A stretch of DNA of 64,000 nucleotides, from positions 1,550,001 through 1,614,000 of the forward strand of contig NZ_CP032550.1 in NCBI RefSeq assembly GCF_009735645.1, read 5' to 3'. Positions 3,935 through 63,213 of this stretch are shown here, piece after piece. Made by a program: the position numbers and the translations under genes. Position 1 is the first letter of the stretch; every line of letters begins with the position of its first letter. The notes beneath the pieces are model-generated. The model was given only the letters and a program-made list of their open reading frames with translations, ran no database searches and had not been told where the DNA came from. This DNA is from Microbacterium oryzae. Lineage in GTDB: Bacteria > Actinomycetota > Actinomycetes > Actinomycetales > Microbacteriaceae.

Positions 3935-3980
3935 GCGTGGGCGGCTTCCGGCGCGCTTCCAGGCCCGAAGAGCGAGGTCG

Positions 3981-4475
3981 GCACCACCGAGCGCGTGGGC
4001 GCGGCCTTCGATGGTGCGGAACTCGTCAAATGCGGGGCGATAGAGCAAGTTCCGCACCACCAAGTCGGATGCCGCCGGCTTCGGCAGTGCGGAACTCGCG
4101 GAAAGCGGGGCCATAGCTCGAGTTCGGCACCACCGAAGCCGAGGGCGCACTCTTCGGTGGTGCGCAACTCGTCAAATGCGGGGCCATAGAGCAAGTTCGG
4201 CACCACCGAGTCGGATGGCGCCGGCTTCGGTAGTGCGTAACTCTCGGAAAGCGACTCCATAGAGCAAGCTCGGCACCACCGAGTCGGATGGCGCCGGCTT
4301 CGATGGTGCGGAACTCGCGGAAAGCGACTCCATAGAGCAAGTTCGGCACCACCGAGTCGGATGGCGCCGGCTTCGATGGTGCGCAACTCGTCAAATGCGA
4401 CTCCATAGAGCAAGTTCGGCACCACCGAACCCGAGGGGCGCTGCACTGGGTGGTGCCGAACTCGCGGAAAGCGCG
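3981..4475. repeat. 73-bp tandem palindromic repeat array A (7 units)
   Basis: The motif GCACCAC(C) recurs at 3981, 4054, 4127, 4200, 4273, 4346 and 4419, exactly 73 bp apart each time; the last unit is incomplete. Each unit contains two dyads of nearly equal size: a 37-bp hairpin (GCACCACCGA, 17-base loop, TCGRTGGTGC) and a 36-bp hairpin that starts with GGAACTCG and ends with CAAGTTC(C). Loops vary, while stems are conserved or compensated. Because 73 is not a multiple of three, the long open frames crossing it on the minus strand are not credible genes. It fills most of the 776-bp gap between gudD and the next gene. A related array lies at 31333-31680. Confidence 0.92.
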
Positions 4476-4505: not shown

Positions 4506-4563
4506 TTCGCCAGTGCGGGCGACACGCTTCACCCGTCGAAAGCGTCCCGCCCGCACTGGCGAA
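4506..4563. repeat. GTTCGCCAGTGCGGGCGACA-family inverted repeat, copy 1
   Basis: Arms of about 24 bp at 4506-4529 and 4540-4563 match at 22 of 24 positions, separated by a 10-base loop. Other copies in this window are at 30381-30440 and 63152-63213 (perfect 23-bp arms), 31247-31301 (diverged), and partial copies near 6709 and 27195. Confidence 0.85.
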
Positions 4564-7695: not shown

Positions 7696-7772
7696 CGCCC
7701 CATCGTACCGGCGCGGCTCCGGGGCCCTCTGGCCGCTCGGCCGTGCCCGGCGTTCGCGCGGGCCGCGGTGCC

Positions 7773-8083
7773 GAATTTCGGATGGCCGGGGCTGATGTGC
7801 GCGTGTCGGTCACAGCAGTCACCACCCGTGCCACCGCTCTGAAATCCGACACGTCCACCGAGGGCCGTCGATCGCCCGCCCGTCACGAATTTCGGATGGC
7901 CGGGGCTGGTGTGCGCGTGTCGGCCACAGCAGTTGCCACCCGCCCCACCGGTCCGAAATCCGGCACGTCCGCCGAGCGCCGTCGATCGCCCGCCCGTCAC
8001 GAATTTCGGATGGCCGGGGCTGGTGTGCGCGTGTCGGCCACAGCAGTTGCCACCCGCCCCACCGGTCCGAAATCCGGCACGGG
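7773..8083. repeat. 114-bp tandem palindromic repeat array (3 units)
   Basis: GAATTTCGGATGGCC starts at 7773, 7887 and 8001, exactly 114 bp apart; the third unit is truncated near 8083. Each unit is bounded by a dyad (ATTTCGGA near the left end, TCCGAAAT about 65 bp on). A related array with 104-bp pitch lies at 27293-27520. The rest of the coaA-ppx gap (8084-8235) holds a GACCCAGCACGTACC doublet and a Cys/Gly-poor C-rich stretch with no recognisable function. Confidence 0.9.
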
Positions 8084-9945: not shown

Positions 9946-10086
9946 CGGACGTTGAGCGAGCGAAGCGGAGACGAAACGCCCCAACCTGCCCTCCAAACGC
10001 GGACGTTGAGCGAGCGAAGCGAGACGAAACGCCCCGACCCGTTCTCCAAACCCGGACGTTGAGCGAGCGAAGCGAGACGAAACGCC
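9946..10086. repeat. three tandem TTGAGCGAGCGAAGCGAGAC-family copies
   Basis: CGGACGTTGAGCGAGCG starts at 9946, 10000 and 10053 (pitch 54 and 53 bp), all in the same orientation. They separate the convergent DUF202 and nhaA genes and start 16 bases after the DUF202 stop. Confidence 0.88.
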
Positions 10087-27194: not shown

Positions 27195-27262
27195 GCGGTT
27201 CGCCCGTGCGGGCGACACGGAATGGGGGCTGATTGCGGCTCGCCAGTGCGGGCGACGCGGCG
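27195..27262. repeat. two partial direct copies of the GTTCGCCAGTGCGGGCGACA arm
   Basis: GTTCGCCCGTGCGGGCGACA (near 27196) and CTCGCCAGTGCGGGCGACG (near 27239) are in the same orientation, so no hairpin forms, unlike other copies. They lie in the 635-bp gap between the two lipoprotein genes. Confidence 0.65.
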
Positions 27263-27292
27263 GCGGCCGAGCGCGGCCATCCGTCGTGTCAG

Positions 27293-27520
27293 ATTTCGGA
27301 TGGCCGGGGCGGGTGTGCGCGTGTCGGCCACAGGAGGCGACTCCCGCACCACCGGCCCGAAATCAGAGACGCGACCCGGGCCATCCGTCGTGTCGGATTT
27401 CGGATGGCCGGGGCTGGTGTGCGCGTGTCCGCCACACGGGGCTACTCCTGCACCGGCGGTCCGAAATCAGGGACGGAAGCCGGGCCATCCGCCGTGTCGA
27501 ATCCCAGATGGCCGGGGCTG
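27293..27520. repeat. 104-bp tandem palindromic repeat array (third unit partial)
   Basis: ATTTCGGATGGCC or a variant begins at 27293, 27397 and 27501, exactly 104 bp apart. Units are related to the 114-bp array at 7773-8083 (same ATTTCGGATGGCCGGGGC start, GTGCGCGTGTCSGCCACA middle and CCGAAAT end) but are ten bases shorter. It ends 12 bp before the stop of the next lipoprotein gene. Confidence 0.9.
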
Positions 27521-27531
27521 GCGCGGCCGGG

Positions 27532-30380: not shown

Positions 30381-30440
30381 GTTCGCCAGTGCGGGCGACA
30401 CGGCTCGCGGCTCGGAACCGTGTCGCCCGCACTGGCGAAC
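30381..30440. repeat. GTTCGCCAGTGCGGGCGACA-family inverted repeat with perfect 23-bp arms
   Basis: Arms 30381-30403 and 30418-30440 are perfect reverse complements, with a 14-base loop. It begins ten bases after the stop codon of the excalibur-domain gene (minus strand) and could act as its terminator or mRNA 3' stabiliser. Confidence 0.92.
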
Positions 30441-30449
30441 GTGGGGAGG

Positions 30450-31079
30450 TTACTCGCAGCCGACGCCGTCGCCGTCGCGGTCGAGGTGGCTGCCGTAGCC
30501 CGGGTCGCCCACGCGCACGGGTGCGGCGCCCGCGTTGCGCGCCTCGGTGCAGTTCTTGTAGTACGCGCTCGGCTGCGCGGGCTCGGCGACCGGCGGCGCG
30601 GCCTGCTCCGGAGCGGCGGCCTCGGGAGCGGGAGCCGCGGCGACCGGCTGCGAGGCGAGCTCGTCGTACTCCGCCGTCTTCGCGTCGAGCGCGGCGGTCT
30701 TCGCGTCGAGCTCGCTGGTGAGGTCGGCGGTCTGGCCCTCGAGCTCGCTCACCTGCGCGGTGAGGTCGGCGGTCGAGTCCTCGGCCTTGGCCAGCGCGGC
30801 GACGGTGTCGGCGTGCTCGGCGTCGAGGGCGTCGTACTCGTCCTGGATGGATTCAAGCGCGCCCAGACGCTCGTCCATCGCGGCCTTGGTCTGATCGAGC
30901 TCGGCGACCTGCGCCGTGAGCTCGGAGTTCTCGGACGAGCTGCCCGCGGTGCCGAAGCCGGCCCCGAGGATGAGGCCTGCGATGGCGGTGACCGTCGGAA
31001 CGAGGAACTTCTTGAGATTGCGCTTCTTCTTCGCAGGAGGTGCTGCGGGCGCGCTGAAGTCGAAGGTGGGTGCGGACAT
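30450..31079 (-). CDS. membrane-anchored coiled-coil protein with excalibur calcium-binding domain
   Basis: A 209-residue surface protein: basic cytoplasmic N-terminus, one membrane segment (about 27-46), a coiled coil with [21 protein letters not shown] heptads (about 50-140), a Pro/Ala/Glu spacer (about 145-168) and a C-terminal excalibur domain (about 170-209) that starts [12 protein letters not shown] and ends [10 protein letters not shown]. The two cysteines and the DxDxDG loop are the hallmarks of this extracellular calcium-binding motif. Role unknown; such domains sit on surface proteins and nucleases. Transcribed alone, with palindromic repeats on both sides. Confidence 0.85.
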
Positions 31080-31246
31080 GGGTGACTCCGTCAGGGATCG
31101 AGCGAAGGCCGCCGGGGGGAGCGGCCGGAAGATTGCGTCCGGAAACGGTCCGGTCGCATTCCTTTGAAAATATCGCGATACCGTTAGAGGGCGCTACAGG
31201 CAGGAATGCCATCCTCGGCTCCGTCCGAGAGGTACCGAGGAAGCGC

Positions 31247-31301
31247 TCGCCAGTGCGGACGACACGTTTCGGGGGCGTTAGTCGTGTCGGCCGCACTGGT
31301 G
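31247..31301. repeat. GTTCGCCAGTGCGGGCGACA-family inverted repeat, diverged copy
   Basis: Arms TCGCCAGTGCGGACGACAC (31247-31265) and GTGTCGGCCGCACTGGTGA (31283-31301) pair imperfectly. It lies 170 bp upstream of the excalibur gene start, just before the 73-bp array B. Confidence 0.8.
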
Positions 31302-31332
31302 AATCCCCGGACCCGCTCAAAACGCGAGAACC

Positions 31333-31690
31333 GCACCACGGAGCGGACCGGCCCCGCACTCGGTGGTGCCGAACCCGCGGAATAACCCAGCTATCCGCGA
31401 CAAGGGCACCACCGAATCGGATGGTCGCGGCTTCGATGGTGCCTAACTCGCGGATACGCGCTTCAGAACGCGAGAACGGCACCACCGAGCGGACGAGCGC
31501 CGCACTCGGTGGTGCCAAACTCGCGGAATGGCCCCGCTATCCGCGACAAGGGCACCACCGAATCGGACGGCCCTGGCTTCGGTGGCGCCGAACTCGCGGA
31601 TACGCGCTTCAGAACGCAAGAACCGCACCACCGAACGGACCGGCCCCACACTCAGTGGTGCCGAACTCGCGGAATCGCGCCCCGGCCATC
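31333..31690. repeat. 73-bp tandem palindromic repeat array B (5 units)
   Basis: GCACCAC starts at 31333, 31406, 31479, 31552 and 31625, again exactly 73 bp apart. Units 1, 3 and 5 resemble each other (GAGCGGAC loop, CACTCGGTGGTGCC), while units 2 and 4 are of another type (GAATCGGA loop, GATACGCGCTTCAGAACGC linker), so the array has a 146-bp higher-order period. The same stem sequences as array A are conserved, with different loops. It separates the excalibur gene from sulP and lies 16 bases after the sulP stop. Confidence 0.92.
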
Positions 31691-31705
31691 CGCCGGCGCC
31701 CCGCG

Positions 31706-33175
31706 CTACTCCCCGCCGAGGTTTCCCGACAGCCGGCCGTGGAAGTCCTGCGTCGAGGTGTTCATCCCGACGATCTCCACCTCGACACCATGGCGCGCGT
31801 ACTTCGTCTCGATCGCGTCGAGCGCCGCAACCGACGAGGCATCCCAGACGTGCGAGCGCGACATGTCGATGACCACGCGCTTCGGGTCGTCCGCGTAGGA
31901 GAACTGCGTCGTGAGGTCGTTGGACGAGGCGAAGAAGAGCTCGCCATCCACCTCGTAGCGGGCGACGCCATCCGCCACCGTCCGTCGCACGGTCGTGAAG
32001 TGCGCGACGCGGCGCGCGAACAGCACCATCGCGAGCAGCACTCCCCCGCCGACGCCGACGGCGAGGTTGTGCGTCAGAACGGTCAGCACGACCGTCAGCA
32101 CCATGACCGCGGTCTCGCTCCGGGGCATCCGCCGCAGTGTCGAGGGTCGGATGCTGTGCCAGTCGAACGCGGCCACCGACACCATGATCATGACCGCGAC
32201 GAGCGCCGCCATCGGGATCAGCGCGACGACGTCGCCGAAGAGCACGACGAGCACGAGCAGGAACGCTCCGGCAAGGAACGTCGAGATGCGCGTGCGGGCG
32301 CCCGCCACGCGGACGTTCATCATCGTCTGCCCGACGACCGCACAGCCGCCCATCCCGCCGAAGAACGCCGACGCGAGCTGCGCGGTGCCCTGGCCCCACG
32401 CCTCGCACGTCTTCGACGAGTGCGAGTCGGTGATCTCGTCGACGAGCTTGGCCGTCATGAGCGACTCGAGCAGGCCCACCGCCGCGACGCCGATCGCGTA
32501 CGGCGCGATGATCGCGAGCGTCTCGCCGGTGAGCGGCACGTTCGGGATGAACAGCGACGGCAGGCTCCGCGGCAGCGCGCCCTGGTCGCCGACCGTCGGG
32601 ATGTTCACACCCGCGACCACGACGAACACCGTCAGCACGATGATCGCGATGAGCGGCGCGGGGATGGCCGTGGTCAGCTTCGGGAACGCGAAGATGATCG
32701 CGACGCCGACGACGATCAGCGGGTACACGAGCCACGGGACGTCGATCACGTGCGGCAGCTGCGCGATGACGACGAGGATGGCCAGCGCGTTCACGAAGCC
32801 CGTCATCACGCTGCGAGGGATGAAGCGCATGAGCTTCGCGACGCCGAAGACCGCGAGCAGGATCTGGATGACGCCCGCGAGCATGATCGTCGCGATGAGG
32901 TAGTCCACGCCGTACGTCGGAGCGACCGGGGCCACGACGAGCGCCACAGCGCCGGTCGCGGCGGAGATCATGGCCGCGCGTCCGCCGACGATCGAGATGA
33001 CGATGCCCATGATGAACGACGAGTAGAGCCCGACCCGCGGGTCGACCCCGGCGATGATCGAGAACGCGATCGCCTCGGGGATGAGCGCGAGGGCCACGAC
33101 GAGCCCGGCGAGCACCTCGCGCGTGAGCGTGCGCGGTGAGCGGATGGCCTGCAGGACCGTGACGCCAGAGGACAC
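31706..33175 (-). CDS. SulP-family anion transporter with STAS domain
   Basis: A 489-residue SLC26/SulP protein of the cytoplasmic membrane with 10-12 membrane segments (about 15-385) and a cytoplasmic STAS domain (about 390-485, including KRVVIDMSRSHVWDASSVAALD). The N-terminal signature ALVPEAIAFS appears as ALIPEAIAFSIIAGVDPRVGLY. Substrates in the family include sulfate, bicarbonate and dicarboxylates; without a linked carbonic anhydrase or sulfate-assimilation gene no choice is possible. It is divergent from a MerR regulator with a shared control region of about 100 bp, so that regulator probably controls it. Confidence 0.85.
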   Translation of the reverse strand: MSSGVTVLQAIRSPRTLTREVLAGLVVALALIPEAIAFSIIAGVDPRVGLYSSFIMGIVISIVGGRAAMISAATGAVALVVAPVAPTYGVDYLIATIMLAGVIQILLAVFGVAKLMRFIPRSVMTGFVNALAILVVIAQLPHVIDVPWLVYPLIVVGVAIIFAFPKLTTAIPAPLIAIIVLTVFVVVAGVNIPTVGDQGALPRSLPSLFIPNVPLTGETLAIIAPYAIGVAAVGLLESLMTAKLVDEITDSHSSKTCEAWGQGTAQLASAFFGGMGGCAVVGQTMMNVRVAGARTRISTFLAGAFLLVLVVLFGDVVALIPMAALVAVMIMVSVAAFDWHSIRPSTLRRMPRSETAVMVLTVVLTVLTHNLAVGVGGGVLLAMVLFARRVAHFTTVRRTVADGVARYEVDGELFFASSNDLTTQFSYADDPKRVVIDMSRSHVWDASSVAALDAIETKYARHGVEVEIVGMNTSTQDFHGRLSGNLGGE

Positions 33176-43603: not shown

Positions 43604-44197
43604 TCAGGCCTGCTCGTCGTTCTTGCCGACGAAGGGGAAGCCGAGGTGGCGCAGGAACGCGCGTCCCTCGTCGTCCGTCTTCGCGGAGGTGACGATGGTG
43701 ATGTCGAAGCCGCGGACGCGGTCGATCCGGTCCTGGTCGATCTCGTGGAAGATCGACTGCTCCTGCACACCGAAGGTGTAGTTGCCGTTGCCGTCGAACT
43801 GCTTCGGCGACAGGCCGCGGAAGTCGCGGATGCGGGGCAGCGCCAGCGAGATCAGGCGGTCCAGGAACTCCCACGCGCGGTCACCGCGGAGGGTGACGTG
43901 CGCGCCGATGGCCTGGCCCTCACGCAGCTTGAACTGCGCGATCGACTTCTTGGCCTTGGTCACGATGGGCTTCTGGCCGGTGATGGCGGTGAGGTCGGAG
44001 ACCGCGCCCTCGATGACCTTGCTGTCGCGAGCGGCCTCGCCGACACCCGTGTTCACGACCACCTTGACGAGACCGGGAACCTGCATCGGGTTGGCATAGC
44101 CGAACTCGTCCTGCAGCTTCTGACGGATCTCGTCCCGGTAGACCTGCTTCATGCGCGGCTGGATTCGGCCAGTCTGCGCAGCGGTATCCGTGCTCAT
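43604..44197 (-). CDS. rplE: 50S ribosomal protein L5
   Basis: A 197-residue 5S-rRNA-binding protein at the subunit interface: [35 protein letters not shown] and the C-terminal [18 protein letters not shown] with GFPF. It follows rplX by two bases. A 150-bp gap with hairpin separates it from rpsH. Confidence 0.97.
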
Positions 44198-63151: not shown

Positions 63152-63213
63152 GGTTCGCCAGTGCGGGCGACACGGTTTCCGCGCCCGCAGCGTGTCGCCC
63201 GCACTGGCGAACC
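63152..63213. repeat. GTTCGCCAGTGCGGGCGACA-family inverted repeat with perfect 23-bp arms
   Basis: Arms 63152-63174 and 63191-63213 are perfect reverse complements over a 16-base loop. It starts 18 bases after the GT2 stop codon, so it may terminate that unit. Confidence 0.92.

Follow-up and report, generated by a model that had tools for sequence, protein, structure and literature searches.

A BIME-like lattice of alternating half-sites that keeps its spacing while its spacers drift in two Microbacterium genomes

What could keep short DNA units exactly 73 bp apart at two places in a bacterial chromosome while much of the sequence between them changes? The question is raised by a 64,000-nucleotide stretch of DNA, here called the window, which spans positions 1550001-1614000 of a genome assembled as one contig of 3,040,780 bases. 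The host is a Microbacterium, a soil bacterium, and its DNA is approximately 70% GC. The original prediction for this locus was that five units (array B), of two alternating types, repeat the 73-bp pitch of an earlier array (array A), and that such a pitch at two diverged loci indicates that unit length is preserved by functional constraint or by the way in which the units spread. In what follows, we ask whether the arrangement is real, how widely it occurs, and what might read it.

The units of array B do begin exactly 73 bp apart, at 31333, 31406, 31479, 31552, and 31625, and a tandem-repeat search places the array at 31317-31693 with a period of 73 or 146. The two alternating subtypes, and with them the 146-bp period, were borne out as well: identity is 88% at a shift of 146 bp versus 62% at 73 and 65% at 219; units B1, B3, and B5 are mutually identical at 57 to 63 of 73 bases and B2 and B4 at 66 of 73, and comparisons between the two classes give 44 to 50 of 73. 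When half-sites are called on the lattice, array B (31324..31670) resolves into ten elements of about 19 bp in strictly alternating orientation, with left half-sites starting at 31324, 31397, 31470, 31543, and 31616 and right (i.e., inverted) half-sites at 31360, 31433, 31506, 31579, and 31652, so that the steps are 36 or 37 bp throughout. The 73-bp pitch stands, but the units are better seen as this alternating half-site lattice than as separate hairpins set in a row. Array A (3972..4465) contains fourteen half-sites of the same family on the same lattice, with a final spacer of 18 rather than 17 bp, and six of its units align with the five of array B over 73 columns without a gap. It had also been proposed that the stems match array A and the loops differ, which is half true. 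The 17-bp spacers of B1, B3, and B5 do differ (4 to 10 of 17 bases matching array A units), but those of B2 and B4 match at 12 to 13 of 17 bases in four of the six array A units compared. Array B lies 35 bp from the 3' end of a sulfate permease family gene with a STAS domain (31706..33175, minus strand; Pfam PF00916 and PF01740), and the next gene downstream encodes a protein with an Excalibur calcium-binding domain (30450..31079, minus strand; PF05901).

The half-site consensus, of about 19 bp, is GCGAG(TT/AA)C(G/C)GCACCACCGA. With half-sites called individually, starts alternate 36 and then 37 bp, leaving spacers of 17 and 18 bp, and these steps recur in 23 arrays, whose ends fall on either half. 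A canonical 17- or 18-bp spacer separates 142 of 145 adjacent half-site pairs with good cores, and the remaining three are off by one base, which is also the full tolerance of the caller. The units themselves were called with a fixed-length pattern and a tolerance of one base, a procedure biased toward regular arrays; nevertheless, the rows are contiguous and so cannot conceal a skipped unit of some other length. The exception is one terminal half-site pair 45 bp apart, found in the same array in both species discussed below (L025/L075).

Is this arrangement a peculiarity of two loci? Allowing up to 3 mismatches, we count 11 occurrences of GCACCACCGA-N17-TCGGTGGTGC in the window; the average over 100 dinucleotide shuffles is 0.01. 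In the whole source genome the pattern has 44 forward places, 42 of them within 13 arrays in which every step from one unit start to the next is exactly 73 bp (29 of 29); the two places outside arrays are isolated (318637 and 1543825), and a reversed control pattern gives 1. The genome-wide search that had been suggested for stems at 73-bp spacing therefore yields 13 arrays, and the randomly spaced copies that would have spoken for chance did not appear. All 42 half-site matches, collected in a search free of any spacing condition, lie in those 13 arrays, and thus the chance-copy objection fails. A second genome, Microbacterium oryzae ZSM5, has 27 pattern places in 10 arrays, within which all 17 steps between neighboring starts measure 73 bp, and 19 of its 20 half-site matches lie in arrays, the odd one being 45 bp from its neighbor at an array end. 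An eleventh ZSM5 array, detected with a second pattern, has a pitch of 72 and lies within a gene. Among 295 Microbacterium genomes, half-site matches number 42 in the source genome, 20 in ZSM5, and 0 to 3 in each of the remaining 293; with the array family in only 2 of 295 genomes, the genus evidently does not need it. A scan of a named genome collection returned eight stretches, four from ZSM5 and four exact single matches in unrelated organisms, none of the latter with a neighbor at 73 bp. Array B has no match in plasmid and phage collections, and we dropped such carriers as a source. In the open-licence literature on repeats of Microbacterium and Microbacteriaceae, no title describes a 73-bp array family, and the main text of the RepRanger paper has no mention of Microbacterium (PMC12306157).

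The comparison with ZSM5 bears most directly on what is being conserved. Nine source-genome arrays can be paired with ZSM5 arrays by their flanks; for array A and its counterpart, the match between flanks is interrupted on either side. Orthologous arrays vary in their number of half-sites (e.g., 14 versus 6, 11 versus 5, and 5 versus 10), and spacer identity in orthologous arrays is 0.31 to 0.77, with non-orthologous averages of 0.37 to 0.43 and the L025/L075 spacers no closer than unrelated ones. The long flank alignments of the same arrays show 83.5 to 95.9% identity. These flanks contain 29 indel events per 181 mismatches in 14 of 15 segments (one was skipped for length, neither the left flank of L020 nor the array A/L078 pair was used, each segment includes 30 coding bases, and two include a type-2 pair, described below). 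The best-matching unit pairs of the nine arrays carry 101 spacer mismatches, or 79 excluding L025/L075, so that at the flank indel rate 12.6 to 16 indels are expected; none is seen, and unit length is 73 in every pair. The functional-constraint half of the original prediction is supported by these nine shared sites, at which spacers have diverged far beyond their flanks and unit length is unchanged. Conserved spacing amid drifting letters suggests that something in the cell may read the arrangement. The gene-borne ZSM5 array was left out of the spacer-identity and spacer-length statistics, as it was from those on pairing, position class, phasing, and substitution.

The other half, spreading, is favored by arrays that are missing or nearly missing at some orthologous sites, i.e., by insertion polymorphism between the source genome and ZSM5. 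The array at 2735275 has no ZSM5 counterpart, 52 bp in ZSM5 replacing 453, and at 2476349 ZSM5 has 69 bp against 353, with a single half-site. Conversely, a ZSM5 array (in L071) is missing from the source genome, where only the right flank and the type-2 pair match and the empty site is unclean. By eye, neither target-site duplications nor terminal inverted repeats are apparent at the two sites occupied only in the source genome, for which the empty sites are likewise unclean. A further case is the eleventh ZSM5 array, in which the called half-sites step by 37 and 35 bp and the pitch, 72, is divisible by three; the open frame that contains it encodes two ABC-ATPase domains (L093; source counterpart L104). 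The two proteins are identical at 497 of 579 aligned columns, and all 43 gap columns fall at the array; the locus measures 158 bp in ZSM5 and 29 bp in the source genome, a net 129 bp, and the array contributes in frame 43 residues that the source protein lacks. An insertion in ZSM5 is the simpler reading. Comparison of units, which had been proposed as a way to distinguish local amplification from gene conversion, favors local amplification rather than conversion from one array to another: of 42 source-genome units, 38 have their nearest spacer relative in their own array, and units that cluster by array in this way imply that arrays amplify locally. Neither array-bearing genome matches the Y1 (RAYT) transposase family PF01797, for which the control was positive in 5 of 14, and we therefore rejected RAYT/REP mobilization.

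Where do the arrays sit? The settings of the 13 source-genome arrays were judged by open frames, codon-position GC, and Pfam. Seven lie between convergent genes (437321, 744852, 1019114, 1501021, 1899503, 2703052, and 2735275; the right-hand gene at 2703052 lacks Pfam support), and five lie between tandem genes (A, B, 2138805, 2327836, and 2476349). At the array at 43830, a carboxyltransferase gene ends toward the array and the left neighbor is uncertain. At least one flanking gene ends toward the array in all 13 cases, a raw count for these arrays alone, and no array among the 13 is known to be flanked by gene starts on both sides. One of the tandem settings places an array (L026; 2138805-2138969) between a ribosomal protein S14 gene (PF00253) and the start side of a gene for an HU-type DNA-binding protein (PF00216). 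At another site (L030), an array in the source genome is accompanied by one GC-rich inverted repeat; the ZSM5 counterpart lacks the array, and its GC-rich inverted repeat is a different one.

A row of inverted repeats naturally invites the idea of structured RNA. Array B folds far better than its shuffles on both strands (z of about -9), but a row of inverted repeats must fold. If hairpins were the selected object, an arm should pair better with its own neighbor than with arms from other arrays; across 23 arrays, this excess is 0.00 +/- 0.25 of 19 bases on the 17-bp side and 0.24 +/- 0.20 of 19 on the 18-bp side. The lack of compensatory pairing between neighboring arms argues against a hairpin role. 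What is conserved looks different. At half-site positions 6 and 7, each of which is T31/A14 over 46 array-strand classes, as at position 9 (G24/C22) and upstream position 6 (C26/G20), both members of one base class occur, and many half-site positions stay A/T or stay G/C even as the base switches strand (this tally leaves out half-sites that did not pass the core or neighbor filter). A-T and G-C swaps make up 68% of between-array half-site differences, where composition predicts 38%. Their share falls to 44% among the differences within arrays, which are more recent, and there transitions (87) are as common as strand flips (79). A GC content of about 70% can account for some of the G/C flips, though not for the retention of A/T positions. 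We infer that the kept class reflects a shape or minor-groove readout of double-stranded DNA. A pitch of 73 bp would correspond to about seven helical turns; in a test of A/T helical phasing, the 10.4-bp harmonic ranks fourth (p 0.065), and outside the core it reaches p 0.006 for 10.4 bp alone, yet 9.0 bp scores higher. Two terminal units with a right half that is not type 1 (the third of L071 and the fifth of L074) were dropped from the phasing and substitution analyses.

Several other repeat families share this neighborhood. A type-2 inverted pair, TTCGCCAGTGCGGNCGACACG and its inverse with starts 37 bp apart, lies beside array B (31246..31303), another lies beside array A (4506..4563), and further window copies are at 27199-27259, 30382-30439, and 63154-63211. 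Inverted type-2 starts are 37 bp apart and direct copies 40 bp apart, as in a ZSM5 locus (L094, contig C8, 3138-3278) with four direct half-sites at an exact 40-bp pitch and GGCCATCC in the spacers. The family is abundant only in the source genome and ZSM5 (40 and 34 matches with up to 2 mismatches), and in ZSM5 contig C3 (L071, approximately 4100-4190) a type-1 array passes directly into a type-2 pair without a break in the 36/37-bp lattice. Because type-1 and type-2 half-sites share GCAC..CGA at the same positions, they may be relatives. In the source genome, 15 of 30 type-2 loci fall within 1.50-1.62 Mb, near the middle of the record, versus 1.2 expected. Could this cluster mark the replication terminus? 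We dropped the idea: rpmH/dnaA motif patterns found nothing in the two end stretches (6,000 and 10,780 bases), GC skew of sampled stretches did not separate two replication arms, and a dif-like pattern had no match with up to 5 mismatches in five stretches totaling 108 kb. A third family, at 7772-8081 and 27275-27521, has the ends GATTTCGGATGGCCGGGGC and CCGAAATC, pitches that differ between the two places (114 versus 104), and CGGATGGC in common with the spacers of some 73-bp arrays. Finally, 9946-10086 holds a 53-bp tandem repeat of 2.6 copies containing GAGCGAGCGAAGCGAGACGAAACG.

How, then, should these observations be explained? Chance tandem duplication at two loci is next to impossible: the fact that units most resemble their own array is true of any tandem repeat, but thirteen loci with the same half-site and pitch, repeated in a second species and set against a shuffle expectation of 0.01, together with half-sites confined to arrays, refute it. 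A harder case is a selfish mobile palindromic repeat without host function, in which an enzyme mobilizes only correctly spaced pairs and old arrays have simply not yet decayed. Such a repeat would fit the presence/absence differences, the gene-borne insertion, the restriction to 2 of 295 genomes, and the local amplification. However, nine arrays predate the species split, and their spacers are only 31 to 77% identical with length unchanged against 13 to 16 expected indels; a past need for movement would not keep length in place, and no Y1 transposase was found in either genome. We consider a purely selfish repeat unlikely, though by no means negligible.

Readings that give the arrays a known host role fare worse. 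Transcribed hairpins acting as terminators, 3'-end stabilizers, or small RNAs would suit both the strong fold of array B and the position of arrays downstream of genes, but in addition to the missing own-arm pairing there is no Rfam match in the window, a tRNA search found none, and array B has no terminator-like site, for which reasons RNA structure was rejected for array B; at one array, moreover, a different terminator-type, GC-rich inverted repeat, in our reading, separates the array from the gene end. An RNA-level element is thus quite improbable. Might the arrays instead bind gyrase, as loading sites that would remove positive supercoils downstream of genes? Their placement at gene ends is consistent with this analogy, and the BIME-2 repeats of E. 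coli are bound and cut by gyrase (PMC6379681, PMC2817692). The same sources describe strong binding of gyrase by BIME-2 (PMC2817692) and an E. coli gyrase motif of about 130 bp with a 36-bp center and periodic flanking G/C content, BIME-2 sites being cleavage sites (PMC6379681). Compared with that motif, the 19-bp half-site has a much higher sequence specificity, and the A/T phasing test does not single out 10.4 bp. The arrays are also absent from 293 related genomes, which presumably must have gyrase too. A gyrase site of this kind strikes us as improbable.

Comparison with described elements helps to place the family. BIMEs (bacterial interspersed mosaic elements), which are arrays of REPs, consist of short elements set at regular intervals with their orientation alternating; they are mainly extragenic, occur at many loci, and lie near gene ends (PMC2817692, PMC3733652). 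The Microbacterium arrays share each of these features, and BIME-2 in particular is close to them; by analogy, they would work most like a BIME. They differ in lacking Y1/RAYT, in half-site pairing that is not conserved, and in their occurrence in only two actinobacterial genomes. Their spacing is also stricter than BIME spacing is known to be. BIMEs and REPs lie outside genes and not between divergent genes, as do the 13 source-genome arrays, but one ZSM5 array is intragenic; overall, 22 of 24 arrays are outside genes by gene calls or were not gene-tested (all 13 source arrays were). Each REP forms a hairpin of its own, in which the arms stay complementary and a GTAG or CGTC tag is present; the half-site consensus has neither tag, and its arms show no such preserved complementarity. 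With both the pairing and the RAYT tests failed, we do not file the arrays as RAYT-mobilized REPs, although CGTC-type REPs likewise have no dedicated transposase (PMC3733652). Rickettsia palindromic elements are palindromic and mobile and can insert in frame in genes (PMC10969869); the Microbacterium arrays resemble these RPE and MITE-type elements in being palindromic and mobile, with one in-frame gene insertion, but RPEs are single elements of about 150 bp, often in genes, rather than rows of half-sites. The transposed non-coding satellites of Leptospira interrogans are tandem-repeat families with one period at several loci; their periods are 37, 46, and 69, and the passages available describe no alternating inverted half-sites (PMC6749651), in contrast to the alternating period of 73 here. 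A CRISPR array has repeats with near-constant spacer length too, but the spacers in our arrays are not unique: they recur between units and are locally homogenized, and the half-sites alternate in orientation, both of which differ from a CRISPR array.

Judged from the DNA letters, the arrays form a real, genome-wide, lineage-specific, BIME-like alternating lattice, and a length constraint on it is evident. As to what maintains it, the reading we favor, at about even odds, is a BIME-like family of mobile repeats in which a putative multimeric protein, by reading the DNA, preserves the geometry. In this model, the working unit would be the half-site of about 19 bp, repeated in alternating orientation on a 36/37-bp lattice in mostly intergenic arrays, and a putative multimeric DNA-binding protein would contact neighboring half-sites together. 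Such joint contact would mean that purifying selection keeps distance and rotation while the spacer letters are free. Arrays would probably grow and shrink via slippage or unequal exchange, and new ones might be seeded by a putative mobilizing activity. The likely place of action would be just downstream of genes, for example as a platform for a nucleoid protein or topoisomerase. Several observations weigh against this model: the 35-bp step and 72-bp pitch of the gene-borne array, the three spacers off by one base, the 45-bp terminal pair, the bias of the calling procedure toward regular arrays, the restriction of the family to two genomes, and transitions that match strand flips in frequency within arrays. 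We speculate further, and only tentatively, that this may be a new kind of chromosomal spacing element, namely, a lattice on which a putative actinobacterial protein polymerizes or wraps DNA, which spreads as a mobile array and in which geometry rather than sequence is kept, with base contacts at the core and A/T-versus-G/C shape readout beside it.

The function of BIME-like repeats is still an open question, and this family is a natural experiment of uncommon clarity: two sister species have some arrays in common and others not, and in them geometry is conserved, sequence drifts, and no selection on pairing is evident. It also shows a repeat array adding a new in-frame segment to a protein. 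Here, sequence evidence alone separates a DNA-spacing role from a hairpin role, and the former makes a clear prediction: half a helical turn added between half-sites should abolish binding.
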